Positions 14,539 through 29,945 of a stretch of DNA of 64,000 nucleotides are shown here, piece by piece; the first letter of the stretch is position 1, and each line of letters begins with the position of its first letter. Under the pieces are notes generated by a model. That model was not told the DNA's origin. It did not search any database and saw nothing but the letters and a program-made list of their open reading frames with translations. Source of the DNA: Candidatus Zixiibacteriota bacterium (GTDB lineage Bacteria > Zixibacteria > MSB-5A5 > GN15 > FEB-12); the NCBI GenBank assembly GCA_024276275.1, contig JAJRXM010000023.1, positions 1-64,000 of the forward strand. The letters are read 5' to 3'. The translations under genes were made by a program, and so were the position numbers.

Positions 14539-15567
14539 ATGCAAAAGACAGTATATATTGTTATCGGTTGTGATACCGACCCTGATAGAATTGACTTTTT
14601 AGACAATGTGCCTACAGATACGCTCACTTGGAGAGGCATGTTAGAGGGTATCCCGGAGACAAAAGAAAAAGTAAAAGATATTACAGACTCAAACGGTAGT
14701 TCTCCTATTTTTACATGGTGCCTGAGAGCTGATCATCAGATAAAAGAAACTTTTGGCAGTTACAACTATGTGTTAGAAAAGAACAAATCTTTCTTTCATG
14801 AATTAGAAAGTACAGGGGATGAAATCGGATGGCATCCTCATTTTTTTAAATTCGATAAACCGACAAGTAAATGGTATCAGGATTTTAAAGATAAGAGCTG
14901 GCAGGTCAATATGCTACGTGAAGCGTATGCTGAATTTCAATCAGCTCTACCGGGTAGAGCAAAGTCGGTCAGAATGGGTTGGATTTATCATAATGACCAA
15001 ACATTTGCGGCTTTGGATAAACTTGGAATAAAAATCGATTTTAGTGGGATTCCTCGATTAAGTCTTTTACCCAAAAATGACAATGTTAAATCTGTTAATT
15101 TTTTTGATTGGGAGCAAACACCCAACCACCCCTATTATCCCTCAATAAATGATTATAGAAAAATTGCGGGTGACAATGAAGATTCCTATAAAACATTAGA
15201 GGCACCTAACTTTGCATCTGATTCTCTTCTCTGGAGTTTAATCAGCGGTGCAGTTTTAGTAAAAAAAATGAAAGATATCAAACCGATTTTTAAAGCAATA
15301 CAAAATCCGGTTTACTGGATCACTATCACTGGTAAAACTAAGTTATTTGCACCGATAGTAAATCAGCTAAAAAAAGAACTACAGAAAAAAGATGAAATAT
15401 ATTTTGTAACATATTTTCATCCCGATGAGTTACTACCTAATAACAGTTCTCTCTATTCTTTACAAAATTTGCATGATAACTTAAACACTATTAGAACAAC
15501 TGCTCACGATTGTCAGGCAGAAATTAAGTATATCAAAGCATGTGATTTACCTGGCTTAGTTAAATAA
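14539..15567 (+). CDS. Polysaccharide deacetylase-like protein (NodB-fold)
   Basis: This 342-residue protein has the look of carbohydrate esterase family 4 relatives. An N-terminal strand carries acids (IVIGCDTDPD), the metal-type motif EIGWHPHFFKF lies near residue 95, and the stretch VRMGWIYHNDQTFAALDKLG corresponds to the RxGw..nd...L...G motif of deacetylases. There is no signal peptide, so it is probably cytoplasmic and perhaps acts on a glycan precursor. A GGTAGGAG ribosome site precedes the ATG. It stands alone between the kinase and a lipoprotein gene. Substrate and activity are inferred only from motif similarity. Confidence 0.6.
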   Translation: MQKTVYIVIGCDTDPDRIDFLDNVPTDTLTWRGMLEGIPETKEKVKDITDSNGSSPIFTWCLRADHQIKETFGSYNYVLEKNKSFFHELESTGDEIGWHPHFFKFDKPTSKWYQDFKDKSWQVNMLREAYAEFQSALPGRAKSVRMGWIYHNDQTFAALDKLGIKIDFSGIPRLSLLPKNDNVKSVNFFDWEQTPNHPYYPSINDYRKIAGDNEDSYKTLEAPNFASDSLLWSLISGAVLVKKMKDIKPIFKAIQNPVYWITITGKTKLFAPIVNQLKKELQKKDEIYFVTYFHPDELLPNNSSLYSLQNLHDNLNTIRTTAHDCQAEIKYIKACDLPGLVK

Positions 15568-15668
15568 TTTTATTGCTATCAGATACCCATTAAAATATAT
15601 ATGGACAACTTCATTCATTTTGTTATATTTAAAAAACTACTATGATTAAACAATGAGGAGTAACAAAA

Positions 15669-16502
15669 GTGCTAACGATAACAAATAAAACAACATTTAC
15701 CAGACTGCTTTGTATTTGTATGTTTGCAGCAACTATTGGATGTGACGGAAACAGTCCGACAAGCAACAATACTGAACTATTTAACAATTCCCCAAATTCA
15801 TTAATTTCCCCAAATATAAACAACATGGTAAAAACAGAAATCATTACATCCGACAACGAAAACATTTCAATAAATAACGACCCTATCAGAGACTATATCT
15901 CGGAAGGTCAAATAATAAAATATTTTGATAACTCTGAACCGAAAATCAAAGACATTATTCATCCCGACAGCATAACAGTATTTAAAAACATAATTACTTT
16001 TGAAGATATTTTAGATGAGTTGCCTGATTATGACATGAAGAAACAACACGCGTTAATTACCTTTAAGGATATTAACTGGGACAATGACGGTATACCGGGG
16101 GGAACAGGATGGGGAGTCTATAACACTACAAATTCTCAAGCTCGTTCAGGGAATAATTATGTAATGAATCGTCATGGGAAAAACTTTCTCGGTTTTACTT
16201 TTCCTCGTGTTGTAAAATTTATTGGGGCATATTTTGCAATGGCTACTAATAGTAATATGATGGATCCTTATGATCCTTCAGGATATAGTGCGGTCAAACT
16301 AAAGTACCATTTTTATGATAACGATTTAAATTTCATGTACAGCTCTGATTGGTTTGATTTAAATGAAACCTCTGAATTCTTTGCGGCAAATGTAGAGGTC
16401 AGACGCGTAGTAATCGAACATGATATTTTAAATACGACATCCGCACAGTTTGGTATCACTGATGCCGAATGGTTTTCAATGGATGATCTAATACTTAAAT
16501 GA
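15669..16502 (+). CDS. Putative outer-surface lipoprotein, unknown function
   Basis: The N-terminus is a lipoprotein signal ending in the lipobox TIGC (Cys about residue 19). A long Asn/Ser-rich linker follows. The C-terminal ~150 residues form a compact beta-rich domain (FLGFTFPRVVKFIGAYFAMA; VVIEHDILNTTSAQFGITD) resembling carbohydrate-binding or PEP-CTERM-type jelly-roll modules. The start at 15669 is GTG, preceded by a GAGGAG site. The following 16503-16899 gap shows no gene. Confidence 0.65.
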   Translation: MLTITNKTTFTRLLCICMFAATIGCDGNSPTSNNTELFNNSPNSLISPNINNMVKTEIITSDNENISINNDPIRDYISEGQIIKYFDNSEPKIKDIIHPDSITVFKNIITFEDILDELPDYDMKKQHALITFKDINWDNDGIPGGTGWGVYNTTNSQARSGNNYVMNRHGKNFLGFTFPRVVKFIGAYFAMATNSNMMDPYDPSGYSAVKLKYHFYDNDLNFMYSSDWFDLNETSEFFAANVEVRRVVIEHDILNTTSAQFGITDAEWFSMDDLILK

Positions 16503-16899
16503 TTATTCTATTCTTTAAATATCAGACATTTAACATTAAATATATATCCCTATCATAACGTAAGCTGATTAATGCGTTACTACTTAAAACCAATCAACTA
16601 ATACTTGTTATGTGAAAAATCACAGAAATACAAAGGTTTCTTTTAACAAAAAGAAAAAATAATGTCTAATACCTGTCTTTTTTTCTCAATACATCTAAAA
16701 AAATAGAACTATTGAATAATGTATAGTTCTTTATTCTTGTAATCTTATTATAATTTCACTATTATTACCGACAATAAAATTAGATAATGAAAGGTTAAAC
16801 ACACAAAGCTGTAATGTCATTACCAAACAACGAAACCAATCTCATAAAACGAGAAAATAACATACTAAAAAAATAGCTTCCAACTCTATTAAATTAATA
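16503..16899. other. Gene-free stretch
   Basis: About 400 bases of AT-rich DNA with scattered A and T tracts. No open frame, tRNA or clear terminator was found. It must hold the promoter for the membrane protein downstream. Confidence 0.4.
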
Positions 16900-17802
16900 A
16901 TGCTATTTCTTGTTTTTTATTTTATCTCTAAAGAAATAGTTCGAAATTGGAATGAGATAGTTTCATTTGAATGGTCTATTAATATAGGAATGTTGTTCGC
17001 AAGCATTATTTTTCATATTCTAACATTTGTTCTATTTTCCAAAGTTTGGTGTTTTATGATTTCAGGATTTAATTATAGAATTCCTTTAAAATATGGATTT
17101 AAATTAGCATACATTGGCAACCTGGGAAGATATTTACCGGGAAAAGTATGGGCTATATTTGGGATGGCATATTTAGCTAAAAGGTTAGATATTAAAGAAG
17201 AGGAGTCAGTAGCTTCTTGGGTAATCGCAGTAATTTTTTCTATGCCGACTACATTCTTAATTAGCTTTATTACTGTTATTTTATATCCTGAAATGATTTC
17301 TGAAAGTTTAAATGAACAATTAGGTGACTCATTATATTATCTATCAGGTTTAACATTAATAGGATCACTTTTTCTTATAATAATCCCAAATAAAACCCTC
17401 TCTATTTTTAATATCTTTTTAAAAATGATAAAACGCCCAGCAGTTAATTTTCAATTAAATACTTCAACAGCTATTAAAATATATGCCGGCTATTTCTTTA
17501 GCTGGATATTATTCGGCATTTCATTTTATTTATTCGTAAATGCTATTACTATAAATACGGAAATACCTTTTTTCGCATGCCTTGGGGCATATATCTTTGC
17601 ATATCAAATCGGTTTTATTGCGATTTTTACACCGGGTGGAATTGGTGTAAGAGAATTCGCTTTGTGGACTATGCTTGAACCTTATATTGGTTCTGTTGCT
17701 ATAGGCATAGCTATTGCTGCTCGTTTATGGAACATCGTTGCAGAACTTCTTTCTGCAGCAATTGCTTTTTCTATTAAATTACCTGAGAAAAAAGAAGAAT
17801 AA
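16900..17802 (+). CDS. LPG synthase-like flippase-domain membrane protein (UPF0104)
   Basis: This 300-residue polytopic membrane protein resembles the transmembrane domain of lysylphosphatidylglycerol synthases (PF03706-type). Signatures are LGRYLPGKVWAIFGM near residue 75 and the PGGIGVREFALW motif near residue 247, with about eight hydrophobic segments. Proteins of this type are thought to act in lipid or polyisoprenoid-linked substrate handling. The frame is open upstream of the ATG (about KKIASNSIKLI), so the true N-terminus may start at a non-ATG codon a few residues earlier. A bidirectional terminator lies just after it. Confidence 0.75.
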   Translation: MLFLVFYFISKEIVRNWNEIVSFEWSINIGMLFASIIFHILTFVLFSKVWCFMISGFNYRIPLKYGFKLAYIGNLGRYLPGKVWAIFGMAYLAKRLDIKEEESVASWVIAVIFSMPTTFLISFITVILYPEMISESLNEQLGDSLYYLSGLTLIGSLFLIIIPNKTLSIFNIFLKMIKRPAVNFQLNTSTAIKIYAGYFFSWILFGISFYLFVNAITINTEIPFFACLGAYIFAYQIGFIAIFTPGGIGVREFALWTMLEPYIGSVAIGIAIAARLWNIVAELLSAAIAFSIKLPEKKEE

Positions 17803-18200: not shown

Positions 18201-18416
18201 TTGAATAATATAAACAATGACCATTTAAAAAGAGCTCAAGGGTGTTTCTTGGGACAATTAGCAGGAGATGCTCTTGGAAGTTTGGTTGAATTTCAAACTC
18301 CTGAACAGATAATAGCGGACTATCCAAATGGTGTGAGGTTAATGGCTGATGGCGGAACGTTTGATACACTTGCGGGGCAACCAACCGACGACTCTGAAAT
18401 GGCTCTTCTATTAGCT
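18201..18416 (+). pseudogene. ADP-ribosylglycohydrolase (DraG-like), N-terminal third
   Basis: From a TTG at 18201 the frame reads KRAQGCFLGQLAGDALGSL and then the first metal motif PTDDSEMALLLA, at which point homology stops (18416). The next base onward belongs to the DUF262 gene on the other strand. The missing C-terminal two thirds are at 141-872 and begin with the very next family residues. Neither half can bind both metals alone, so the enzyme should be dead unless the DNA can be rejoined. Confidence 0.8.
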
Positions 18417-19655
18417 TTTGGGATGGATATGATCTACATGAAATTTATTTTTATAATCTAGATGAGGATATAAAAAAGTTAAAACGGAATAAGTGTAGCT
18501 CTGCCCATACTTATATTGAAGTAAGTTATCGATATCGTCCTCAGTAAAGATAATAGTTTTGTTTGTTCCTTTAAATTCAGATATAATGCCCTCCAACGGA
18601 AATGTAGTATTGCTATTTCTTATAACTTCTCTCAATGGACGTAGAACAGCATCAGGGGCACCACCAAATATCCGTTTTATGATTGCACATGAAATCCAAT
18701 ACTTAATATTTTTACGCTCTTCAATAAATTTCTCAGAAATATGAAAATTATTTGGTAACCCAATTTTTCTCAAATAGTATGCAATCGGAATTACAGCGTA
18801 ATTAGTAGTTAGTGTATCCCGTGAATAGCCAAAACTTGAGAATAAACGTACCGCATCTTGTATCGCTCGTTTAATATCAATCCAGTCTTCTTCAATTTTT
18901 AGCATGCTTTCCTTATTGAAATTATCCACCTTAAAAGCTATATTCTTGAAATCACTTAGCACTAAACTACTTTTTAGTACAAAATCTTTATCAAATTTAA
19001 ACCCTATTCCAATATTATTTATCTCATCTACAAAAGAAGTAATTTCTTCGCGGGCATCTCTGTCTTTCCATTGAGCAGAAGCAATAGACAATAAAAGATC
19101 TGAATAACTTAAAATAGTCCCTCCACTATTAACTCTAATAAAAATATTTAGCACTTTATCAAGACTTTCGTCTTTTTCTAAATAATAATTAATAATTGGG
19201 GTTTTATGAATTGTACTAAATAATTTAAACAAAGTTTTGTTAGCAAATTCTTTTTGCTCTCTTGATTTATCCATTACCCCTTCTTGGATGAGAAAATCAT
19301 TTATTTCCCATTCTTCATTAAAATTCAAAATATCTTCTATCTTAAACCAAAATGCTTCCTCATTTTGTTTTTTTGCTTCTTCCTTAGATAAAAAAGTAAA
19401 ATCATAATACAAATCAGTTTGATCAGTTTTTTTCTGCGGAGATAATAAATTTAGATACAAATGCCTGATTGGAAAAGCATGAGAATTATTCCACCTTTTA
19501 TGAGGTTCTTTATAGGCATAAGATCCTTTAAGAGCAATATAAAGTGAAGTCAACCTTTGCTGACCATCAAGAATACCAATAATATCATCCTGATTTGTCA
19601 CATTAGCCTTTGGATTGTGTCGCATATCGCGTTCATGATAATAAACTTGTTGCAA
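18414..19655 (-). pseudogene. DUF262 (GmrS-like) protein, middle part lacking both ends
   Basis: About 413 residues belong to the DUF262 family, whose members act in modification-dependent restriction (GmrSD) and related defence. The stretch YHERDMRHNPKANVTN, the ILDGQQRLTSLYIALKG motif and the helical middle are intact. The frame ends in FHVDHIHPKS, the start of the DUF1524-type His motif, then runs into ADP-ribosylglycohydrolase DNA. The first ~70 residues (the usual LPAIQREFVW region) are missing: a TAG sits directly before the first codon at 19655. The C-terminal part is at 17905-18193. The gene has therefore been cut at two places. Confidence 0.78.
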
Positions 19656-20320: not shown

Positions 20321-20698
20321 ATGACTGCTCAAAAAAGATTCCCTAAAAGAGAATACGAAGCTAAAGTTATTGGAGTTTACCCAAATGATCACTACTCCTT
20401 TGATAATGGTGGAAGTATTAAATACTTACTTGAAAATGACGAAAAAGTATTTTGGCATATCCCTGGTACACAAAGCGAAATGCTCGACATTTCCTTGAAA
20501 ACTGCCGGTCACTACCTCAACTACCAATATGTCTACGGCAAAAAATACTTTCATCGAGATTTATTGAATCGCCATTGTATCGTTCTTATCGAATTATACC
20601 AAAGTAAAAAATATCCAGATAAACTCGTACCCGTAATTGTCGGATTTAAATTCTCATACATCGATCTTTTCTCATACAACGGTGACAATCATGCCTAA
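20321..20698 (+). CDS. Hypothetical protein, first gene of the element operon
   Basis: This 125-residue soluble protein has a basic N-terminus (MTAQKRFPKREYEAKVIGVY) and a beta-rich body. It is preceded by a GGAG ribosome site and overlaps the start of the parB-like gene. I do not recognise the family. Its position at the head of the conjugation/partition-like operon suggests a regulatory or single-strand-DNA-binding type role, which is only a guess. Confidence 0.6.
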   Translation: MTAQKRFPKREYEAKVIGVYPNDHYSFDNGGSIKYLLENDEKVFWHIPGTQSEMLDISLKTAGHYLNYQYVYGKKYFHRDLLNRHCIVLIELYQSKKYPDKLVPVIVGFKFSYIDLFSYNGDNHA

Positions 20699-21617
20699 AA
20701 TTGATAGAAGTAAAATTCAATATCAAATGAGATATTTGCCGGCATCCCTAATCATCGATAATAGTAATAATATACGGTTTGAAGATGATGCTGTTGCAGA
20801 TACTGAGCTTGCAAACAGCATACATCAATCCGGCATCATCCAACCGTTGGTTGTAAGACCTTTAGAAAATGGCAAATTTGAGATTCTTTGCGGATTTAGA
20901 AGATATAAAGCAGCGAAAAAAAACCATCTTGAATTTCTACCGGTAATAATTATAAAATCGGATTCGGATGATGACAAGACTTTTACATTAGTAGAAAATA
21001 TACAGCGAAAAAACCTCACTACTTTTGAAATTACAATTGCTGTTAAAAAACTCGTTGATACTACAAAACATAGTTACTCAACTATTGGTAAAAAAATAGG
21101 TATGAGTAAAAGCTGGATTAGTAAACTTAACAAGTTTGCAAAACAATTATTGGATAATAATGAAGATTGTTCGTTAACGAAACTTCCTGTTTCAACTTAT
21201 CTGGAATTGGTGAATAAACCGGATCTGCTCAAAAGAGCAGAAAAAGAAAATTGGACTCAGCAGCAAGCAAGAGAAGAAGTTAATAAACTAAAAAATGCTC
21301 AGAATGAAAAATCAGGATTTATTCATCGGGGAAAGATTAAGAATACCCCAGCAAAAGACAACAATGCTCTCCTACCGGCTTACTATAAGCAGTCCCAGCT
21401 AATTGCCTACAAACCAATTGAATTCAAAGACGCTGGTTTTACTATCAACGCCTTTTATTTTGATAAGAATCAATCATATGATATTGAAGCTGTTGTAGAA
21501 AAACTTCAAGAACTTCAAAACTATCTTGATTTTGCCATTAAAGTTATTCGGGAACATGACGGTATAAGTTCAGAAATTTCAGATTATATCAAAGAGGAAT
21601 TTCACGATGTACTTTGA
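20691..21617 (+). CDS. ParB/RepB/Spo0J-family DNA-binding protein
   Basis: The 308-residue product starts at the ATG at 20691, overlapping the previous stop. The N-terminal ParB domain carries PLVVRPLENGKFEILCGFRR YKAAKK (the GxRR nucleotide-binding motif) and VENIQRKNLTTFE. A helix-turn-helix follows (YSTIGKKIGMSKSWISKLNK). No ParA gene is next to it. ParB-like proteins together with E1/ThiF, E2 and JAB genes are the hallmark of PRTRC-type cassettes, and all of those are present downstream. It probably acts in maintenance or regulation of the element. Confidence 0.85.
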   Translation: MPKIDRSKIQYQMRYLPASLIIDNSNNIRFEDDAVADTELANSIHQSGIIQPLVVRPLENGKFEILCGFRRYKAAKKNHLEFLPVIIIKSDSDDDKTFTLVENIQRKNLTTFEITIAVKKLVDTTKHSYSTIGKKIGMSKSWISKLNKFAKQLLDNNEDCSLTKLPVSTYLELVNKPDLLKRAEKENWTQQQAREEVNKLKNAQNEKSGFIHRGKIKNTPAKDNNALLPAYYKQSQLIAYKPIEFKDAGFTINAFYFDKNQSYDIEAVVEKLQELQNYLDFAIKVIREHDGISSEISDYIKEEFHDVL

Positions 21618-22014
21618 TAAAAAAAGTCAAAAACGACATACGAAAACCCAAAATCAGGAGATTAAATCCGGTGATGAAATATTTACTATACAACGTAAAC
21701 AAACAACCTTGATTTCTGATACTGGTGATATTGAAACTGAAGAGACGGTACAATCTATGATGATCGGTGATATTAAGGTTGACAGTGTTTCAAAAATATT
21801 TGGGAAATGCCATGATTGTGGTTTACTAATTACATATTTGAATAAACGGATTTGCTTTTGCGGTAAAATTATATGTACTAACTGTGCTGAATGGTGGGAT
21901 GATGATAACCGTCCAGTCTGTTCTATTTGCTACAAAGCACTAAAGAAAAAGAAATTCTGGTCTTCTTTTTGGCACCTAATTTTATCTCCTTTTATTGAAA
22001 GAAGAGAAAATTGA
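21607..22014 (+). CDS. RING-like / treble-clef zinc protein
   Basis: This is a 135-residue protein. The first ~70 residues are polar. The C-terminal half has eight clustered Cys: CHDCGL, then ICFCGKIICTNCAEWW and CSICYKAL. The spacing suits two zinc sites, as in RING, FYVE-like or B-box folds. It overlaps both neighbours by a few bases, so it is in the same operon as the ParB-like and ATPase genes. A RING-like domain in an operon with E1 and E2 homologues could be a ligase or adaptor, but many zinc ribbons on mobile elements only bind nucleic acid. Confidence 0.6.
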   Translation: MYFDKKSQKRHTKTQNQEIKSGDEIFTIQRKQTTLISDTGDIETEETVQSMMIGDIKVDSVSKIFGKCHDCGLLITYLNKRICFCGKIICTNCAEWWDDDNRPVCSICYKALKKKKFWSSFWHLILSPFIERREN

Positions 22015-23312
22015 AAAGAAAATTAAGTCCAGAAAACTATGCCAACTTTCTGTATCAGGAATGTCAAAAATATGGCATTGTTGAAAAAGAGGATCTTGCC
22101 CCATTGATAGAAAAATATATGTTGAATCCAACTGATAGAAGTTCACTCTGGATAATTGAATTGGCATTAGCTGAAGCCAAACAACTTCAACAGACATACC
22201 CAGATCCATTCCGTCCTACAAACCCTATTAATGAGGGGGTTTTCACAGGAAATCTCCTATTGGGTGCTATCCCACCTGAAGGTCTCCCTTATTTGATCCC
22301 TCTTGAATTATTAAAAACTCACATGTTGGTTACATCAAGAACCGGCGGTGGAAAAACAAACTTAAATTTTGTTATCTTAACCCAAATATTAGAAAGTCGG
22401 AAAAATGTTGATGATATTTGATAGAAAAGGCGATTATCAATCATTACTTCACTATCCAAAGTTTGTTTTCATACAATTGATACTTTTCTATATTAATATT
22501 CTGGAGCCACCGCCGGGATTGGATTTCAAACGCTGGGTAAACATAATTGCTGAAATTTTCTCAAATTATCTTGTGATATAAGAGTGGCATCTCGAAGTCT
22601 GCTTGTTACAACAATTCTAAAAATTAGTGAATTACCAGAATTTCTGCCTAGTAGTAGATATCCCACATTAAAAGATGTATATATTTACCTACTCTATAAA
22701 CTAAAAGTACCCTTAATAAGTCACACTGCTCGGCATAGAGAGACACTTATCAATCGCCTTGAAGGGTTGTTTGCGGTATTTAGTGATAATATAAATTCAC
22801 ACCGGCAATTAAATTGGAATAAATTTCTAAAAACTGACTGGGCTCTTTCACTAGTCGGTCTACCAACAGATTTCCAAAATCTTCTAATTACTATAATTAT
22901 TGCAAAAGTTTTAATGTATCGTATTGTAAATAATCTTCGTAGCCAAAAACTTGAAATTCTTATAGTTTTGGATGAAGCATCCACGATGTTCAAAAAATGG
23001 CATGAACAACGGGAAGGAAATTATCTGTTGTTAGATTACTTAGCTCAATCTCGTGAGTTTGGTGTTGGTTTTTTAATCTCTACTCAAACTCTTTCAACAT
23101 TGCCAATATCTCTTCTGGCAAATACCGGTATCAAAGTTATTGTCGGTGGATCCGGATCCGGCATGGACTACGATATCTTTGCTTCTGCAACAGGTATAAC
23201 TCCTGAACAAAAAACATATCTTAAGCAGTTAACTAATCCTGGTCAAGCTTGTGTAAAAGATCCAAGATATCCTCACGTATTTACTTTAAAGGTGCCTCAC
23301 TTTGTCGAATAA
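22011..23312 (+). pseudogene. HerA/FtsK-like DNA-pumping ATPase (two frameshifts)
   Basis: The restored protein of about 433 residues has Walker A in TSRTGGGKTNLN, a VMIFDRKGDY-like segment (read MLMIFDRKGDYQSLLHYP), EPPPGLDFKRWVN, Walker B ILIVLDEASTMF and a sensor region QSREFGVGFLISTQ. These are typical of HerA/VirB4-like hexameric pumps on integrative elements. The frame breaks at a run of five A (22401-22405) and again near 22572, where one base is missing before IRVASRSLL. If both are sequence errors the gene is intact. It probably moves element DNA or works with the nuclease-like protein that overlaps its end. Confidence 0.75.
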
Positions 23313-24102
23313 GCTAAACAAAAATATCCCAAAGTATATCGTAGATATGGAATCCGAAAAACGCAGTAAAGGATTATATGCTGATTACACTCTCTTACCT
23401 CCTGCTGATAAGCCTATGGATAAACCAGATGCTTCTCAAACGGAGCCAGTACAACCAAAACCTAAACAAAAAGAATCTAAATCTGTATCTAACACCAAAA
23501 AATTTTTAACTCTCTGGCTGAACCAGAAAAAACCATTTTTATCTCAACGGGAAATTTTAGATTTACTCAACATTACAAGCGGCTCAATAATATCAAGGAC
23601 CAAAAAAGATTTTAAAATTAACGGATATATAAAAACACATAAACTTCAGATTGGTAAAACTAACTCGTCTATTTGGGAACCAACTGAAAAAGCTTACCAA
23701 TTTGTTGGACTTAAAAAACCAACATGGGAATCAAAAGGAGGGTATCTCCATCAGTATATTGTTTTTTATTTTAAAAAGCATGGGATTAAAGACGGTTATC
23801 ACGTTGAAGTCGAATATTTCCTTGATAATGGTAAAGCGGTAGATCTACTGCTCAAAAATAATAATGAAATTATTTTCATAGAAATTGCTACCAGTTACCC
23901 TCTTGAAAAAGAAATATCAAATATAATTAAGGACTTTTCATCAAGCCTTATACCGGATCAACTTATAATAGCTGTTCAAAATGGTAAGATGAAAACTAAG
24001 CTTGAAAAAATGATACTGTCAGATAAACGAATAGACAACAATCGTGATAAAATAAAAGTTGTGCTTGCCGGTAATTTAATCAATCAAGAAAAGATAAACT
24101 GA
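23302..24102 (+). CDS. Winged-helix protein with a possible PD-(D/E)XK-like domain
   Basis: This is a 266-residue protein. A Pro/Lys-rich linker (~40-65) precedes a winged helix (SQREILDLLNITSGSIISRT). The C-terminal half has VDLLLKNNNEIIFIEIATS, which resembles the D ... ExK core of restriction-like nucleases, although the Lys is replaced. The TTG start overlaps the ATPase stop, so the pair may form a HerA-type pump with its DNA-end-processing or recognition partner. The nuclease activity is uncertain because of the altered motif. Confidence 0.5.
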   Translation: MSNKLNKNIPKYIVDMESEKRSKGLYADYTLLPPADKPMDKPDASQTEPVQPKPKQKESKSVSNTKKFLTLWLNQKKPFLSQREILDLLNITSGSIISRTKKDFKINGYIKTHKLQIGKTNSSIWEPTEKAYQFVGLKKPTWESKGGYLHQYIVFYFKKHGIKDGYHVEVEYFLDNGKAVDLLLKNNNEIIFIEIATSYPLEKEISNIIKDFSSSLIPDQLIIAVQNGKMKTKLEKMILSDKRIDNNRDKIKVVLAGNLINQEKIN

Positions 24103-24308
24103 TGAAACTATTAAAAATAATTTTAATTTTATTTTTAACTACAGTGTTGTTTGACTGGGTGAATTCATGCGGGGGTTATTCTCTTTCGTTTTCAGACCTC
24201 TTACCGTTTTCTCGCACAGGTCATAATTTTACTTACAACTATGTTTCGCTTGTGATGATTGGTTTTACTATTTATGGCATAAGGAGGTTATATGGAGGAA
24301 GATTTTGA
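24102..24308 (+). CDS. Small membrane protein, 68 residues
   Basis: The start overlaps the previous stop (TGATG). Two hydrophobic segments, LLKIILILFLTTVLFDWV and YVSLVMIGFTIYGI, flank a polar loop. It could be a holin-like or conjugation-associated membrane protein; no family was recognised. The next gene starts inside its last codons. Confidence 0.6.
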   Translation: MKLLKIILILFLTTVLFDWVNSCGGYSLSFSDLLPFSRTGHNFTYNYVSLVMIGFTIYGIRRLYGGRF

Positions 24309-24885
24309 TGATTGGGAAGATAACAACTATGAGTATGAAGAGGAAGAGAACGAGAACGAAGAACTCACCGCCTCTCCCCCAAACATCAATTTTGAAGAAC
24401 TTGAGGACTTTGCTGACGATGTCCGTGAAGTCATTGAACATAATCAAAAACAAATTAACTATGCTAATCGCGAACTAAATTCAGTTGAAAAATCAACATT
24501 TCTTGAACGTGAACTTGTAAACATTGAGAATGTCATAAAAGAAGTAAAAACTATGTTAGATAGACGTCATACTAATGAAGAAACCTTGAGTCAAATGAAT
24601 CCAGGATCTGCTACTGCTTGGGCACTTGAGGATAAACAACAAAAAAGAGAAATGTCATTAAAACAACGTATGACGCTTCGCTTAGCAGGTATAGATTATG
24701 ATAGCTTATCAGATTTCACCGATGACGCATCACATATAGTAGAAGATGCTGTTAACCCTAAACAACGAAAATTTAGAAAAGATTTTAGAGCAGATTTAAA
24801 ACGATTACCCTATACGGAACGTGTAGAATATATTGATCGTTTACTTGAATATGGTCGCATAGACCAAAACAATATAATGAATTAA
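24292..24885 (+). CDS. Acidic coiled-coil protein
   Basis: This 197-residue protein starts with an extremely acidic stretch (DFDDWEDNNYEYEEEENENE) followed by long helices with coiled-coil character. The C-terminal half is basic (KQRMTLRLAGIDYD; RKFRKDFRADLKRL). An AAGGAGG ribosome site lies within the previous gene. It has no recognised domain and may be a structural or DNA-mimic-type accessory of the element; that is speculation from composition. Confidence 0.6.
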   Translation: MEEDFDDWEDNNYEYEEEENENEELTASPPNINFEELEDFADDVREVIEHNQKQINYANRELNSVEKSTFLERELVNIENVIKEVKTMLDRRHTNEETLSQMNPGSATAWALEDKQQKREMSLKQRMTLRLAGIDYDSLSDFTDDASHIVEDAVNPKQRKFRKDFRADLKRLPYTERVEYIDRLLEYGRIDQNNIMN

Positions 24886-24903
24886 TATCAGAGTATCTAT
24901 AAA

Positions 24904-25119
24904 ATGTATAGTATCCGTTGGGATAGAGTTTTAGCATTTATTACAATTATCATGCTACCGGTAATCTACCGGTGGTTAGCAGATAATCTTCATATCGGTA
25001 GTTTCTATCAATTTCCAATTTTAGGAGCTGCCTGCTCGAATTACGAAGTCAAAGCACTAATCCTATTGGGATTACTTCTTATTTCTCTCGTGCTAATAAT
25101 CAAAATTATTAAAGAATAA
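24904..25119 (+). CDS. Small membrane protein, 71 residues
   Basis: Two hydrophobic helices (VLAFITIIMLPVIYRWLA and ALILLGLLLISLVLIIKIIK) are connected by a short loop with one Cys. It lies 18 bases after the coiled-coil gene in the same operon. Family unknown. Confidence 0.55.
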   Translation: MYSIRWDRVLAFITIIMLPVIYRWLADNLHIGSFYQFPILGAACSNYEVKALILLGLLLISLVLIIKIIKE

Positions 25120-25190
25120 CGCTTGAGTTAAGTATAGAAAGAAATTCAATACCGGTTTATTAATAACTGGAGATACAAAGAGGCATCAAA

Positions 25191-25370
25191 TTGAAACCTT
25201 TTACTCAAATTCTTAACGATCCTAACAGAAATGATAATCAAAATAATTATTCTGTTAACAACGGCACTACTTTGAAACAAATCCCTGATGAACTTTTGAA
25301 AGCGATTAAAAACTTTTACGACCAGCACACTCAATCCAATCGCCCAGAAATTACATCTAGCAATGGTTAA
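25191..25370 (+). CDS. Small protein upstream of the E2-like gene, 59 residues
   Basis: A TTG at 25191 with a good AAAGAGG site seven bases upstream opens a 59-codon frame (LKPFTQILNDPNRNDNQ ... ) ending RPEITSSNG. It is Asn/Gln-rich with one helix (PDELLKAIKNFYDQH). It occupies the place where ubiquitin-like modifiers are usually encoded in E2-JAB-E1 cassettes and ends in Gly, but no beta-grasp pattern is obvious. Alternatively it is an unrelated small element protein. Confidence 0.45.
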   Translation: MKPFTQILNDPNRNDNQNNYSVNNGTTLKQIPDELLKAIKNFYDQHTQSNRPEITSSNG

Positions 25371-25434
25371 TTTTAAATCATAGAAAAGGCAGGAGTAATA
25401 ATTACTCCTGCCATAACCTAACGAGGTAATAGTA

Positions 25435-25869
25435 ATGATTTCAAATTCTCAAAATTGGATTTTAGAAAACTGTAAGTTATTAGCCAAAATATTTGGTACT
25501 AATAATGTGTATTTGGATGAAATAGAATTTAGGTATATTAAAATTTATCAATTTCATTTACCAGCTTTTTGGACCCCCAACCGTTCCACATTACTAATTG
25601 AACTTCCTGTTGGAAGTCAAATATTTTCAACAGCACCTAACAAATTTTACTTACAGAAAGGATTACGAGTATTTAATAAAATACCTGAACATTATTTTGA
25701 GTCAGATTATTATAATGACCTTTCTGCTCAAGGTTGGGCAAGATACTCTTTCCATATCACTAATGGATGGAAACCAAGTATGATTTGTAAATACGGTATG
25801 ACATTGGTAGATATTCTTGATGCTTTATATGAAAGAATGGATGATGCTGTTATGGAGACATTAAAATGA
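25435..25869 (+). CDS. E2-like (ubiquitin-conjugating-fold) protein, Prok-E2_E-like
   Basis: This 144-residue protein has the strand pattern of bacterial E2-like domains: IKIYQFHLPAFWTPNRSTLL, then IELPVGSQIF, APNKFYLQ and a C-terminal WARYSFHITNGWKPS with a final helix (TLVDILDALYERM). The W-x-R-x-S-x-H ... W-x-P block resembles prokaryotic E2 family E. The usual flap Asn/Cys arrangement is not evident; a Cys occurs at ICKYG after this block. Its stop overlaps the JAB start (ATGA), and an E1-like gene follows, which is the strongest support for the assignment. Confidence 0.6.
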   Translation: MISNSQNWILENCKLLAKIFGTNNVYLDEIEFRYIKIYQFHLPAFWTPNRSTLLIELPVGSQIFSTAPNKFYLQKGLRVFNKIPEHYFESDYYNDLSAQGWARYSFHITNGWKPSMICKYGMTLVDILDALYERMDDAVMETLK

Positions 25870-26345
25870 AAAAACAAAATAAAATAGTATTCAAAAAAAG
25901 TGATTTCAGCATTCTCATACATTATCTTCAGTCAAGAAGAGATATTGAATTAGGTGCAATGGCATTCTACTCTATTTCAGAAGGAGATGATTACTTAAAC
26001 CATTTAGTCAATGGAATTATCATTCCTAGAGATGAGGACTATCATTCACATTCTGCTTATGAAATGAGCCTTAAACCAAAATTTATGGAAAAATGCTATC
26101 AACTCTGTGAAAAATTTAATACTCATCTTCTCGATATTCACACGCACCCATGGGCTACTACTGCTTCATTTAGTTCAATAGATGATAATGAAGCAATCAA
26201 AAAAATTGACTATATGAAACAGTATGTCAATAATACTAAGATCTCTTTCATTGTTTTTGGTTGTTCTCCTCAAATTGTTCAGGCTAGAAGTTGGTGTGGT
26301 AACAATCACACACTAAACATAACAGATAACATTATTGTATTATAA
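25866..26345 (+). CDS. JAB/JAMM-domain metalloprotease (deubiquitinase-like)
   Basis: This 159-residue single-domain protein has a complete JAMM zinc motif: Glu28 (DIELGAMAF), His92 and His94 in DIHTHP, and Ser103 ... Asp106 in SFSSIDD. Related bacterial proteins remove ubiquitin-like tags or trim their C-termini. It is coupled to the E2-like gene by a 4-base overlap and followed 11 bases later by the E1-like gene. All catalytic residues are present, so it is predicted to be active. Confidence 0.88.
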   Translation: MKKQNKIVFKKSDFSILIHYLQSRRDIELGAMAFYSISEGDDYLNHLVNGIIIPRDEDYHSHSAYEMSLKPKFMEKCYQLCEKFNTHLLDIHTHPWATTASFSSIDDNEAIKKIDYMKQYVNNTKISFIVFGCSPQIVQARSWCGNNHTLNITDNIIVL

Positions 26346-26356
26346 AGGAAGATAAA

Positions 26357-27439
26357 ATGAAAATATTTAATTGTAATACTCCCAAAAACAGACAACCAGT
26401 TTACGATAAGAAGATATGCTCTAAACATATTCTTGTTTTTGGTGAAGAAATACAAAAATTGTTTTCTTCAATAACTGTGGGAATTATCGGATTAGGTGGA
26501 TTGGGAATGGTTGTTTTAGAACAAATTATGAGGCTTTTTCCTAAAGCAATAATTGGCATTGATTATGATACAGTATCAAAATCAAATTTAAACAGACTTA
26601 CCGGCACAACATATGTAGATGCCAACTCCAATATTTTAAAGTCTGATCATGCTCATCAACATGTAAAAAAGTTTAACCCTCTACAAGTTACTAAGTTTAT
26701 CAATGGTAACTTTCTTGAGGAAGAATCGCAGAAACGATTTGGAAGCTGTGATTTAATTTTCAATTGCCCTGATTCAGTTGTTACAAGATTAGCCGGATGT
26801 CAGTTTGGATTAGCTCATGGTAAAATTGTAATTGATTTAGGCTGTGGAGCAGTTGTTGAAGATGGTATTCTTCAACATGTAGTTGGTCAAATTGTTAAAA
26901 TAACTCCTGATTCTGGATTCTGTTTAAACTGTTCCGAGCTTTATGATCTTAATGAAGCTCGGGCAGAATTAATGGATGATGATGAATTGAATCGTCAACA
27001 AGAAATGGGATACATTCGTGGTGCTGATGTACCAGAACCTCAAATCTATTCTCTTAATATGATGACAGCATCTTGGGCAGTATGGTTGATGATGCAGATT
27101 GTTGCTGATAAAGAGCCCGCATTTGATGGTATTGCAATTGATGCCTTAAATTTCAATACATATACATGGACAGAACGAAAAACCAATCCAAATGATTGTC
27201 CTATTTGCGGTCGAAACGGCATTATCTTTGCCGGTAATAAAGCAGAATTACTGATTAAAGAATGTAAAGCAGATGCAAAAAAGAAAGTTATCGCTGAAAT
27301 TACGAAAATTATTTTTGACAATAAAAAAGACACATCTAAGTCTCAACGACCTCTTGAACAAAACCAATTAACCTCCAAAAGCAAATCGGAGGTTCCAAGT
27401 GAAAAAGGAACAAATAGAAAGACTAAAAAAAGCAAATAA
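26357..27439 (+). CDS. E1/ThiF/MoeB-like adenylyltransferase
   Basis: This 360-residue ThiF-fold enzyme would adenylate the C-terminus of a ubiquitin-like protein. The nucleotide loop is VGIIGLGGLGM (residues 41-51), followed by IDYDTVSKSNLNRL with the conserved Asp and Arg. The structural zinc ligands are CLNC (~190) and CPICGRNG (~275). The C-terminal ~60 residues are a Lys/Ser-rich tail ending KTKKSK, which may bind DNA or partners. With the E2-like and JAB genes it makes a complete conjugation/deconjugation set except for an evident modifier. Confidence 0.88.
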   Translation: MKIFNCNTPKNRQPVYDKKICSKHILVFGEEIQKLFSSITVGIIGLGGLGMVVLEQIMRLFPKAIIGIDYDTVSKSNLNRLTGTTYVDANSNILKSDHAHQHVKKFNPLQVTKFINGNFLEEESQKRFGSCDLIFNCPDSVVTRLAGCQFGLAHGKIVIDLGCGAVVEDGILQHVVGQIVKITPDSGFCLNCSELYDLNEARAELMDDDELNRQQEMGYIRGADVPEPQIYSLNMMTASWAVWLMMQIVADKEPAFDGIAIDALNFNTYTWTERKTNPNDCPICGRNGIIFAGNKAELLIKECKADAKKKVIAEITKIIFDNKKDTSKSQRPLEQNQLTSKSKSEVPSEKGTNRKTKKSK

Positions 27440-28433
27440 CATTAGTGATGTTGCTCGAGATTTAGGGATGATAATTAAAAACAATATGACACATTGTTTT
27501 TATCCGGACAGACATAATAACAATGATATTCATCCCTCATTGTATATAAATCCAAATTATCAGACTTTTAAATGTATGGCATGTGGTGTAAACGGAGATG
27601 TAATTACACTTCTTCAATTAAAAATAGGATTATCTTTTACAGAAACTCTTGAATTTCTTGCCAAACGTGCAGGATTAGATATTAACAACAACCAACAAAA
27701 TAATTTTAAAATTAACAAATTAACAAAATTATCTATTTCAAATAATGACTATGAACAATACACCGATATCTACGAAAGTTTTCTTGTTCTGTGTAATGAG
27801 CCTTCGAAAGAGGCAAGACAATGGCTCTACGATAGAGGGTTTACAGAAAAAACAATTAGCAGAATGAAACTCAAATGGGCTGGTTCTCCAAAACTAATTT
27901 TCAATCAATTACGCTTTCTCTATTCATCAGACCGCTTATCTGAAAGCGGCCTCGTAAATAAGAGCGGTAAGCTCTTTTGTTATGATCATAAATTTATTTG
28001 GACATACTTTAAAGATTCTAAACCGGTCTATCTTCAAGGGCGTTCCATATGTAAAGACATAAAACCAAAAGAAATGAATATCTCTAAGCCGGTACCGTTT
28101 CCTTATAATATTGATGTGTTAAAACAAAACCCTCATACTGTTATTGTTTGTGAAGGGGTAATTGACACATTGAGTTTGATAGAGCACGATTTTTTAGCTA
28201 TCGGTGTCATTGGAGTTCAAGGTTTCAAAGATAATTGGCTAACATTATTAAAAAATGTCAAAGTTAAAGTCGCTTTTGATGCTGATCTTGCCGGTCAACA
28301 GGCATCTGAAAAGCTTGTGATTAAAATGAAAAATTTTGGAATCAATGCTGAGTCGGTGATCCTTCCCGGAGGTTTTGATATCAATCGTTTCTTTCTCGTT
28401 ATAGAAAACATGAAAGATGCAAAGGTGATATAA
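27399..28433 (+). CDS. DnaG-like primase with zinc finger and Toprim domain
   Basis: This is a 344-residue primase. The GTG start at 27399 has a GGAGG site and lies inside the end of the E1 gene. The N-terminal CHC2-type finger reads CFYPDRH ... FKCMACGVNGDV, followed by FTETLEFLAKRAGLDI. The Toprim domain has VIVCEGVIDTLSLIE (Glu, Asp) and the acidic pair in AFDADLAGQQA. It lacks the helicase-binding part of cellular DnaG, fitting an element-encoded primase for lagging-strand or transfer-strand synthesis. Confidence 0.85.
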   Translation: MKKEQIERLKKANNISDVARDLGMIIKNNMTHCFYPDRHNNNDIHPSLYINPNYQTFKCMACGVNGDVITLLQLKIGLSFTETLEFLAKRAGLDINNNQQNNFKINKLTKLSISNNDYEQYTDIYESFLVLCNEPSKEARQWLYDRGFTEKTISRMKLKWAGSPKLIFNQLRFLYSSDRLSESGLVNKSGKLFCYDHKFIWTYFKDSKPVYLQGRSICKDIKPKEMNISKPVPFPYNIDVLKQNPHTVIVCEGVIDTLSLIEHDFLAIGVIGVQGFKDNWLTLLKNVKVKVAFDADLAGQQASEKLVIKMKNFGINAESVILPGGFDINRFFLVIENMKDAKVI

Positions 28434-28645
28434 TGTCGGAAAATCTACTTACTCCTCAAGAAATAGCCGACAAACTCGGTGTTAAAATATCAACTATTTA
28501 TTATTGGTCGCACACAGATTCTATCCCTAAAATTAAACTTGGTAACCTGCTACGGTTTCGATGGAGTTCTATTTCAAAATGGCTTGATAAAAAGGAAATA
28601 AAAGGTAGAAAAAGTAGAAAGCTTGATGTTGATAATTATCTTTAA
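28433..28645 (+). CDS. Excisionase-family helix-turn-helix protein
   Basis: This 70-residue protein has the AlpA/Xis-type winged helix: LLTPQEIADKLGVKISTIYY and then IPKIKLGNLLRFRWSSISKW. The start overlaps the primase stop (TAATG). Its place next to the convergent integrase indicates a recombination-directionality factor that promotes excision of the element. Confidence 0.82.
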   Translation: MSENLLTPQEIADKLGVKISTIYYWSHTDSIPKIKLGNLLRFRWSSISKWLDKKEIKGRKSRKLDVDNYL

Positions 28646-28646
28646 A

Positions 28647-29746
28647 TTAGTACTGTAATTTGTTTACACTTTCGACCAAATGAGCAGGGGCTAAATGAGC
28701 GTAGATCATAGTTGTTTGAATATCCGAATGTCCTAAAAGAGTCTTAACAGTAGTGAGGTCAATGCCGTTCATTATTAGATGTGAAGCAAAGGTATGTCTT
28801 AGTGAGTGCACCTGTGTAAAATCATCAATTTCAGCCACTTTAGCTATTTTTATTAATTCACGGCGAAGTAGATTATGTGAGTGTCCATTATTTTTCAATT
28901 GAAATACTTTATCCTTCTTAATAATTTTAGTTTGGTTAGACTTAAAATCATTCAGTACTTTCAATAATTCATTATTTATTGGTATTTCACGTTCACCGGT
29001 TTTAGGATTCCATCTTTTTTTGATCGAATGTATATTTTTCGTAACTTGAAATCGATATCTTTCCATGTTAGGTTTTCAATCTCACCTTTACGCATACCTG
29101 TATGTAATAATGTAAAATATATTGGAAAAAGATGTCTCGGAGTATGCTTTAAAAACTTATTGACTTCTTCAGAAGTTAAAAACCTAAAAGGTTTCTTATC
29201 GTCATGCTTTAATGGTTTAACTCCTTTTATTGGATTCTCTTTGATACAATTCCATCTGACGGCTAAATTTAACATATATTTAATACCATCTACTTCCATA
29301 TTAATTGTCCTTGAACGTGCTCCTTTTCTAGTAGTTTTCTTAATATCTTTTTCTGATTTAACTTTGTACCCATTTGGGTTTGTATATGTACTTCTTCTAA
29401 ATGATTTATATTGTTCAATTATCCCTTCATTTAATTGAGAAACTTTTCTAACTGGAATTTTTCGTAAATTTAAAAATTCTCTAAAATGATTCATTATAGC
29501 TCGATAACGTTTTGTGGTACTCTCCCTATTATTAGTTAAATTATATTCTAAAAATATCTCAATAAGTGTATCTATTTTGATGTCTTGCTTGGTTAATTTG
29601 TATTCATCACGAGCTATTTGTAGTTCTATATCTTTTAGAGCTAATTCAGCTACATTTTTAGAATTACCTACTTTTTTTCTGATTCGAATTCCGTTGTATG
29701 AATAATCAAGATACCAGATTTTATCACGTTTATATATACGAGCCAT
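28647..29746 (-). CDS. Tyrosine recombinase/integrase (frame break at an A7 run)
   Basis: This is a phage-type integrase adjacent to tRNA-Ser. The ATG at 29746 (MARIYKRDKIWYLDY) follows a TGGAGGA ribosome site and is preferred over upstream codons. An N-terminal arm-binding region and SAM-like core-binding domain lead to the catalytic domain: Arg in LHTGMRKGEIENLTW, HSLRHTFASHL (His, Arg), LGHSD (His) and the nucleophile in MIYAHL. The frame changes at seven A on the coding strand (29015-29021). One added A, or a -1 slip on A-AAA-AAA-G, joins IYIRSKK to RWNPKTGEREIPI. It probably catalyses insertion at the tRNA 3' end. Confidence 0.87.
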
Positions 29747-29857
29747 AAAGTCCTCCAACAATTTAAATGACACAAATATGGCACAAGCCACACATCAAAA
29801 AGATAGTAAGATTATAAGCTACTGTCAAGTAGTAAGATATGATTGTTGTTTGTATTA

Positions 29858-29945
29858 TGGCGGAGGAGGTAGGATTCGAACCCACGGTACTTTGCAGCAC
29901 AACGGTTTTCAAGACCGCCGCTTTCGACCACTCAGCCACTCCTCC
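29858..29945 (-). tRNA. tRNA-Ser (anticodon UGA), integration target
   Basis: The minus strand folds as an 88-base class II tRNA. The acceptor is GGAGGAG/CTCCTCC, the anticodon loop CTTGAAA has TGA, there is a long variable arm, and the T loop is GGGTTCGAATCC. The 3' CCA is encoded (29858-29860 on the plus strand as TGG). The integrase gene begins 112 bases beyond its 3' end, the usual arrangement for tRNA-targeted elements. Confidence 0.95.

Follow-up and report, generated by a model that had tools for sequence, protein, structure and literature searches.

A ubiquitin-like gene cassette at a tRNA-Ser locus

We analyzed a 64,000-nt stretch of DNA (hereafter the window; positions 1-64,000 of contig JAJRXM010000023.1, assembly GCA_024276275.1) from a Candidatus Zixiibacteriota bacterium, which carries a cassette of ubiquitin-like modification genes beside an integrase and a tRNA-Ser gene. 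The cassette encodes, head to tail on the forward strand, an E2-like protein, a JAB/JAMM protease, and an E1/ThiF adenylating enzyme, with a 4-nt overlap between the first 2 genes (Table 1), and a short open reading frame (ORF) lies directly upstream of the E2 gene. A preliminary description of this DNA had proposed a ubiquitin-like cassette of E1, E2, and JAB genes, carried by an integrative element at tRNA-Ser and comprising consecutive genes, 2 of them overlapping, for an E2-like protein, a JAMM protease with all zinc residues, and a ThiF/E1 enzyme with a GLGGLG motif and 2 Cys pairs. Both proposals are supported: the 3 enzymes are encoded as described, and an excisionase gene (xis) and a tyrosine integrase gene adjoin the tRNA-Ser gene.

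Homologs of the E1, with 38-53% identity, are encoded in 7 further genomes of the same order, and because it recurs in this way the cassette is beyond chance. A profile search with the E2 detected the cassette in 7 of the 132 genomes of the phylum, a sporadic distribution expected of a mobile element, and a search with the E2 alignment led to 6 Zixiibacteriota loci. Every locus with enough context contains the same set of genes, namely those for a zinc protein, a HerA-type ATPase, a winged helix-turn-helix (wHTH) protein, 1 or more membrane proteins, the small ORF, E2, JAB, and E1, with xis and the integrase gene at the same end of the set in most loci; the exceptions are L012, in which xis adjoins the zinc protein gene, and L013, in which no related integrase was seen. 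The active-site residues of E1, E2, and JAB are invariant across the loci. Scans of viral contigs with E1, E2, and JAB and of a phage collection with E1 revealed no relatives, and a tblastn search of plasmids with the E2 returned no match.

The 3 enzymes resemble those of the Bub (6E) pathway

The "6e" operons were described as encoding a polyUbl (Ubl, ubiquitin-like protein), an inactive E2-like protein, a JAB-E1 fusion, and a metal-binding protein (Iyer et al. 2006; PMC1779556). Canonical Bub operons are tied to DNA-damage-controlled regulators, and phage protection by them has not been shown (PMC13373217). By sequence and fold comparison, this pathway is the closest relative of the cassette, the nearest solved relatives of all 3 enzymes being those of Citrobacter Bub.

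The E2-like protein of the window scores 21.9 bits against the Pfam family Prok-E2_E (PF14462), compared with a curated cut-off of 25, and the family is matched by all 7 collected E2 relatives (best 3.4e-6). No Cys is conserved among the E2s; an S-x-H motif occupies the equivalent place in all 7 of them and in every multi-ubiquitin-linked E2 examined. Modeled with AlphaFold (pLDDT 82.7), the window E2 takes an E2-like fold and gave a single strong match in a Foldseek search, BubB in 9eae (9eae_C; probability 1.00, E = 4.7e-3), which is also matched at 1e-20 by a joint profile of window-type and plasmid Bub E2s. The JAB protein has the complete JAMM set (E28, H92, H94, S103, and D106, invariant in 7 of 7), its Prok-JAB Pfam score falls slightly under the cut-off, and the only solved structure matched by its profile is BubCD (residues 7-113, 3e-7). 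The E1 passes the Pfam ThiF cut-off (3.4e-23) and contains, besides GLGGLG, the Cys pairs C189/C192 and C281/C284, with all Cys invariant; among solved structures, its profile matches residues 177-395 of Citrobacter BubCD at 1e-30, well ahead of UBA5, the SUMO E1, and MoeB (1.3e-11). Two outcomes that the preliminary description had named as speaking against it, the lack of an E2 fold in the product encoded at 25435 and a match of the E1 and JAB proteins to unrelated sulfur-carrier enzymes, did not occur: the fold is E2-like, and both proteins match Bub enzymes better than sulfur-carrier enzymes.

In a midpoint-rooted tree of E1 domains, which includes several long branches, the Zixiibacteriota enzymes form one clade (support 100/99) on a long branch, which points to one derived lineage for the cassette with its peptide (see below). 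The clade falls on the Bradyrhizobium/Deinococcus side of the tree, not the Citrobacter side, and the branching order inside it does not track host families. Bradyrhizobium plasmids also provide the best plasmid matches for the window E1 and for a related JAB.

A short conserved ORF precedes the E2 gene

All 7 loci that include the interval directly 5' of the E2 gene have a short ORF of 59-75 codons there, in which a Pfam scan recognized no family. The predicted peptides have similar N-termini (MGIF, MGFL, MKKF, MRVF, and MKPF), a freely variable middle, and C-termini of the general form RPP(I/V)VFxNG, in some copies with added residues: RPEITSSNG (window), RPPVVYSNG-SSTA, RPPVIFENG-IG, LPQVIFGNG, RPTIMFTNG-F, RPPMVFING with a longer extension (L016), and RPPIVFSNG. 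The cleanest copies of the peptide are those of L012 and L009, the E1 gene of L009 being divided between contigs. What follows NG varies from nothing to IG, F, SSTA, or, in L016, an extension on the 17-aa scale, and the extra residues of the 4 extended peptides resemble precursor tails cut by a JAMM protease, as in ubiquitin precursors. The pattern P-x-[IVM]-x-[FYS]-x-N-G occurs near the end of all 7 peptides and of none of the 1812 other small ORFs across the collected loci. Positions 1-2 of the tail codons for the conserved P, N, and G are fixed, whereas 71% of pairs differ at position 3, indicating constraint at the protein level, and the length of the ORF, a sequence resembling a ribosome-binding site, the N-terminal motif, and the tail are all kept across genomes of 4 families. 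An AlphaFold model built from the 7-sequence alignment (pTM 0.16) contains a 4-residue helix near the N-terminus and no strand; together with the freely varying middle, it argues against a beta-grasp domain in the peptide. Charge-hydropathy analysis gave a mixed result on disorder and was not used as evidence.

Other candidates for the modifier were considered and rejected, namely the zinc protein and the membrane protein, neither of which has a C-terminus conserved as Gly, the ORF at 20321, which has no relatives, and a Multi_ubiq protein encoded elsewhere in the genome, none of which was found.

The RNA hairpin between the peptide and E2 genes (Table 1) has counterparts in L011 and L012, and it could set modifier-to-enzyme ratios.

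A proposed variant of the Bub pathway with a different candidate modifier

Plasmid Bub operons have the gene order BubA (multi-ubiquitin)-BubB-(JAB-E1)-DUF6527. Since the order here is peptide-E2-JAB-E1, the peptide fills the BubA slot. The correspondence includes a BubB-type E2 with S-x-H and no conserved Cys, the order of JAB and E1 (the 2 parts of BubCD), a modifier gene directly before the E2 gene, a modifier tail ending in Asn-Gly (7 of the 7 peptides), and sporadic carriage on mobile elements. However, JAB and E1 are separate proteins encoded by adjacent genes rather than one, the genes for the HerA-type ATPase and for the wHTH, membrane, and zinc proteins are linked to the cassette in a fixed manner, and a short peptide without a predicted fold stands in place of the Multi_ubiq beta-grasp modifier. 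DUF6527 (PF20137) was absent from all 8 cassette genomes, as was Multi_ubiq (PF14452) from the genome of the window and all cassette genomes, in searches for these 2 families. Because the Multi_ubiq modifier, a defining feature of Bub, is missing, we regard the cassette as a new variant working like Bub rather than as a member of that group. A Bub-type contrast is found in another genome of the same class (G117, contig C81; L034/L070), where about 1.3 kb separates a Multi_ubiq gene from a DUF6527 gene.

The tails of the peptides and of BubA can also be compared directly. The pattern PP..[FY]..G, which was derived from the peptides themselves and occurs in 4 of the 7, matches 3 of the 1812 other small ORFs, all 3 of which are BubA genes, with the ends ...VPPATFGHGNH and ...VPPATFGHGTY in Bradyrhizobium and ...VPPATFGGGV in Deinococcus. 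The solved mature chain of Citrobacter BubA ends in ...LTPKDVNNG, the next residue of the C. freundii precursor gene being the start of BubB, and C. koseri BubA has ...TPRNVENG. Thus, at least 1 Bub modifier ends in Asn-Gly, as do all 7 peptides before their extra residues.

We consider it likely that the cassette represents a Bub-type (6E) pathway carried by tRNA-Ser integrative elements of Zixiibacteriota, in which an unstructured peptide of 59-75 residues, keeping a Bub-like Asn-Gly tail, would have replaced the folded BubA. With less assurance, we lean toward the broader view that this E1-E2-JAB pathway conjugates an unstructured, non-beta-grasp peptide of about 60 residues that has only the tail of a Ubl, so that tagging would not need the ubiquitin fold. 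By analogy with Bub and Cap2, we infer that the JAB protease would trim the residues after NG where these are present, that the E1 would adenylate the terminal Gly of the peptide, and that the JAB could reverse the modification by removing the peptide again. The Cys-less E2 may assist covalent transfer to the target, possibly through S-x-H chemistry at S105/H107. The working part of the tag, delivered to the target, would be its hydrophobic, helix-prone N-terminus (MGIF...), perhaps as a motif for docking to a membrane or a partner. The constant company of the HerA-type ATPase and the membrane and zinc proteins suggests action on the DNA-handling apparatus of the element itself; more tentatively, the role may be to regulate or protect the element's own HerA-type DNA pump, or it may lie in conflict with other replicons.

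Several points weigh against this interpretation. The case is built from sequences and models, and the related cassettes come from 7 loci in one phylum. The typical contacts of an E1 with a beta-grasp surface would be missing, and a host beta-grasp protein encoded elsewhere in the genome is excluded for Multi_ubiq only. The low-confidence model of the peptide and the mixed charge-hydropathy result do not prove disorder. Alignment of the peptide with BubA profiles by hhalign pairs exactly the 2 tails (RPPVIFENG with VPPATFGGG) without significance (E = 0.25); 1 of the 4 BubA proteins of the nearest group (Rhizobium 007, ...SAPKANFG) misses PP..[FY]..G, and the BubA tails of the Citrobacter-like branch fit a terminal NG or G only. 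The window peptide itself has the weakest tail of the set (RPEITSSNG) together with a TTG start, and this copy may be decaying, as 2 mobility genes are frameshifted here.

Alternative explanations and other known systems

The alternative that survives best, although we judge it unlikely, is that the 3 enzymes act on a beta-grasp protein of the host (ThiS, MoaD, or an undetected Ubl), with the small ORF encoding an unrelated protein of the element, such as a membrane-associated partner of the pump. ThiF/MoeB models also match the E1, ThiS/MoaD-type proteins were outside the scope of the genome searches, and the peptide gene adjoins those for membrane proteins. However, among solved structures the E1 is far closer to Bub than to MoeB, and the peptide takes the BubA position in every case, with a conserved NG end like that of solved Citrobacter BubA and with the PPxxFxxG motif of the nearest BubA group.

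MccB-type relatives of E1 modify short peptides, and the candidate substrate here is short with an Asn-Gly end. A pathway like those for microcin C or ribosomally synthesized and post-translationally modified peptides, in which the E1 would adenylate the C-terminus of the peptide to yield a modified or released product with no protein target, is nevertheless improbable: the E2-like partner and the JAMM protease are conserved with the peptide in every complete locus, whereas such proteins are not known to take part in MccB pathways, and no exporter was recognized beside the cassette. Still less credit is due to a decayed Bub operon, in which BubA would have eroded to a non-functional tail remnant. 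The frameshifts in the window integrase and ATPase and the weak tail of the window copy would fit such decay, but the small ORF keeps its length, ribosome-binding-site-like sequence, N-terminal motif, and tail across 4 families under codon-level constraint, and the enzymes keep invariant active sites.

Hardly tenable is a PRTRC- or BIL-type system, the resemblance advanced by the preliminary description, despite the upstream ParB-like gene and the presence of E1, E2, and JAB: the PRTRC ParB and ThiF models score far under their cut-offs (64.5 versus 278.6 bits and 14.4 versus 144.75, respectively), BilC is the only one of the PADLOC BilA-D models to match and does so weakly (E = 0.0045), the ParB-like protein is not conserved in the relatives, and the E2 has no conserved Cys. 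With PRTRC the cassette shares ParB-like, ThiF, and JAB genes on mobile DNA, and with BIL and Type II BIL the operon logic of Ubl, E1, E2, and JAB; BIL systems, however, have a catalytic-Cys E2 and a folded Ubl. The appropriate relative is Bub (6E), and the cassette departs from it in the candidate modifier, whose ORF at 25191-25370 the same description had overlooked.

In CBASS Cap2/Cap3, too, E1/E2/JAB logic acts on the C-terminal tail of a substrate that has no beta-grasp fold, and Cap2 activation of the CD-NTase C-terminus is a known precedent for such a substrate (PMC12355090). The CBASS substrate, however, is an enzyme of about 400 residues, whereas no CD-NTase family was found among the 10 cassette proteins scanned, and the E1 and the Cys-less E2 are encoded separately rather than fused. 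Tagging with actinobacterial Pup (prokaryotic ubiquitin-like protein) also has a small disordered protein as its tag, as is proposed for the peptide here. Its ligase is glutamine-synthetase-like and its C-terminus Glu or Gln, in contrast to the E1/E2/JAB enzymes and the Gly end found here. Another small-modifier variant is encoded on an Aphanizomenonaceae plasmid (L038:1852-2049), where a 65-aa ThiS-like protein ending in ...VPKIVKG occupies the BubA slot before E2-like and ThiF genes and adjoins type III-B CRISPR genes.

The integrative element and neighboring genes

The cassette belongs to an element with a tyrosine integrase at tRNA-Ser. The integrase, recognized through its relatives, lies beside tRNA-Ser in 4 copies (the window, L011, L014, and L016). 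As expected, 23-24 bp of the tRNA 3' end recur as direct repeats at the far side of an element with a related integrase in the genome G002. This element, of about 42 kb (contig C38, approximately 104.8-146.6 kb; L064, L065, L068, and L069), occupies the homologous tRNA-Ser, has 2 tandem att copies at its far end, and is devoid of this cassette in the stretches compared. A search of the window and its genome for att repeats did not find the left end of the element, yielding only a 19-base match with the short contig C20. The genes at 14539-17800 are neighbors in the genome G003 too and for that reason look chromosomal, which places the left end probably between about 18 and 20.3 kb. Immediately before the genes of the element, the reverse strand (18411-19655) encodes a protein with a GmrSD/DUF262 N-terminal domain.

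The preliminary description had also listed a ParB-like protein and a primase, both confirmed by their family models (Table 1), a RING-like zinc protein, which indeed has 8 conserved Cys and passed in no family scan, and a HerA-type pump. The ATPase is of the HerA type, but it is encoded by 2 ORFs split after Walker A, the second of them frameshifted; the frameshifts here and in the integrase gene reflect either assembly error or decay of the window copy. The split itself, with its stop/ATG overlap, occurs in 3 genomes (the window, L012:12345-13626, and L013:7741-9032), and a P-loop ATPase that is naturally in 2 parts would be an unusual case. In L015 and L016, the ATPase is a single protein of 701-709 aa fused to a wHTH/nuclease-like part; family scans of the wHTH protein gave weak HTH/HEC-02B matches only. 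A second HerA/VirB4-like ATPase gene with a conserved small neighbor lies a few kb upstream in 3 loci (L015:1787-3124, L013:626-1960, and L016:15546-16928). Between the 2 halves of the membrane protein is an ORF for an acidic coiled-coil protein (24292-24885), which, like the ORF at 20321, is not conserved in the relatives. The primase gene overlaps that of the E1 by 41 nt, and its product matches the PADLOC reverse transcriptase-associated DnaG-like family of DRT systems at 9.5e-52.

Table 1. Features of the cassette and its element, in window coordinates (aa, amino acids).
Feature	Position	Strand	Basis or remark
ParB-like protein, not conserved in related cassettes	20637..21617	+	ParB_N 7.3e-19
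Zinc-binding protein, 8 conserved Cys, RING/FYVE-like spacing	21607..22014	+	Conserved in 5 of 5 full loci
HerA-type ATPase, N part, ending just past Walker A	22011..22421	+	Likewise split in L012 and L013
HerA-type ATPase, C part, ATG start overlapping N part, frameshift near 22578	22405..23312	+	Relatives match HerA, CedD, and CedB
wHTH protein, in which a motif seen by eye suggests a possible PD-(D/E)XK-like domain	23302..24102	+	Conserved; fused to ATPase in L015 and L016
Small membrane protein, equivalent to the first half of a membrane protein of 152-156 aa in relatives	24102..24308	+	Comparison with relatives
Small membrane protein, equivalent to the second half of that protein of 152-156 aa	24904..25119	+	Comparison with relatives
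Putative ribosome-binding site GAGG before peptide ORF	25180..25183	+	GAGGCATC/GGAGG-type sequence 6-9 nt upstream in most copies
Candidate modifier peptide of 59 aa in the BubA position, with a TTG start and the C-terminus ...NRPEITSSNG	25191..25370	+	Conserved ORF, tail motif, codon pattern
Strong RNA hairpin lacking a U-run, between the genes for the peptide and the E2	25388..25412	+	11-bp stem, -21.7 kcal/mol, z -5.8
E2-like protein (BubB-like; Prok-E2_E) with invariant S105-x-H107 and without a conserved Cys	25435..25869	+	Pfam, alignment, fold model
JAB/JAMM protease, BubC-like, stand-alone	25866..26345	+	Invariant JAMM residues; PDB match to BubCD 7-113
E1/ThiF adenylating enzyme, BubD-like	26357..27439	+	Pfam, motifs, PDB match, tree
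DnaG-type primase, only here and in sister cassette L011	27399..28433	+	TIGR01391 8.7e-33
Excisionase-like HTH protein (xis), conserved in relatives	28433..28645	+	HTH_17 6.8e-10, TIGR01764
Tyrosine integrase, frameshifted near 28976-29066	28647..29791	-	Its 2 ORFs match one continuous integrase of 366-371 aa in L011 and L014
tRNA-Ser(UGA), integration target; shared att core ~29860-29883	29858..29945	-	ARAGORN

Implications

The novelty of the locus is its likely modifier. If the proposed pathway is correct, E1/E2/JAB machinery would recognize hardly anything beyond a C-terminal tail, and the substrates of E1-type enzymes may extend well past proteins of ubiquitin shape. Gene-finders that seek a ubiquitin fold would miss such modifiers, here an ORF for 59 aa with a TTG start. 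The candidate modifier is small enough for synthesis, which makes the idea testable with purified proteins.

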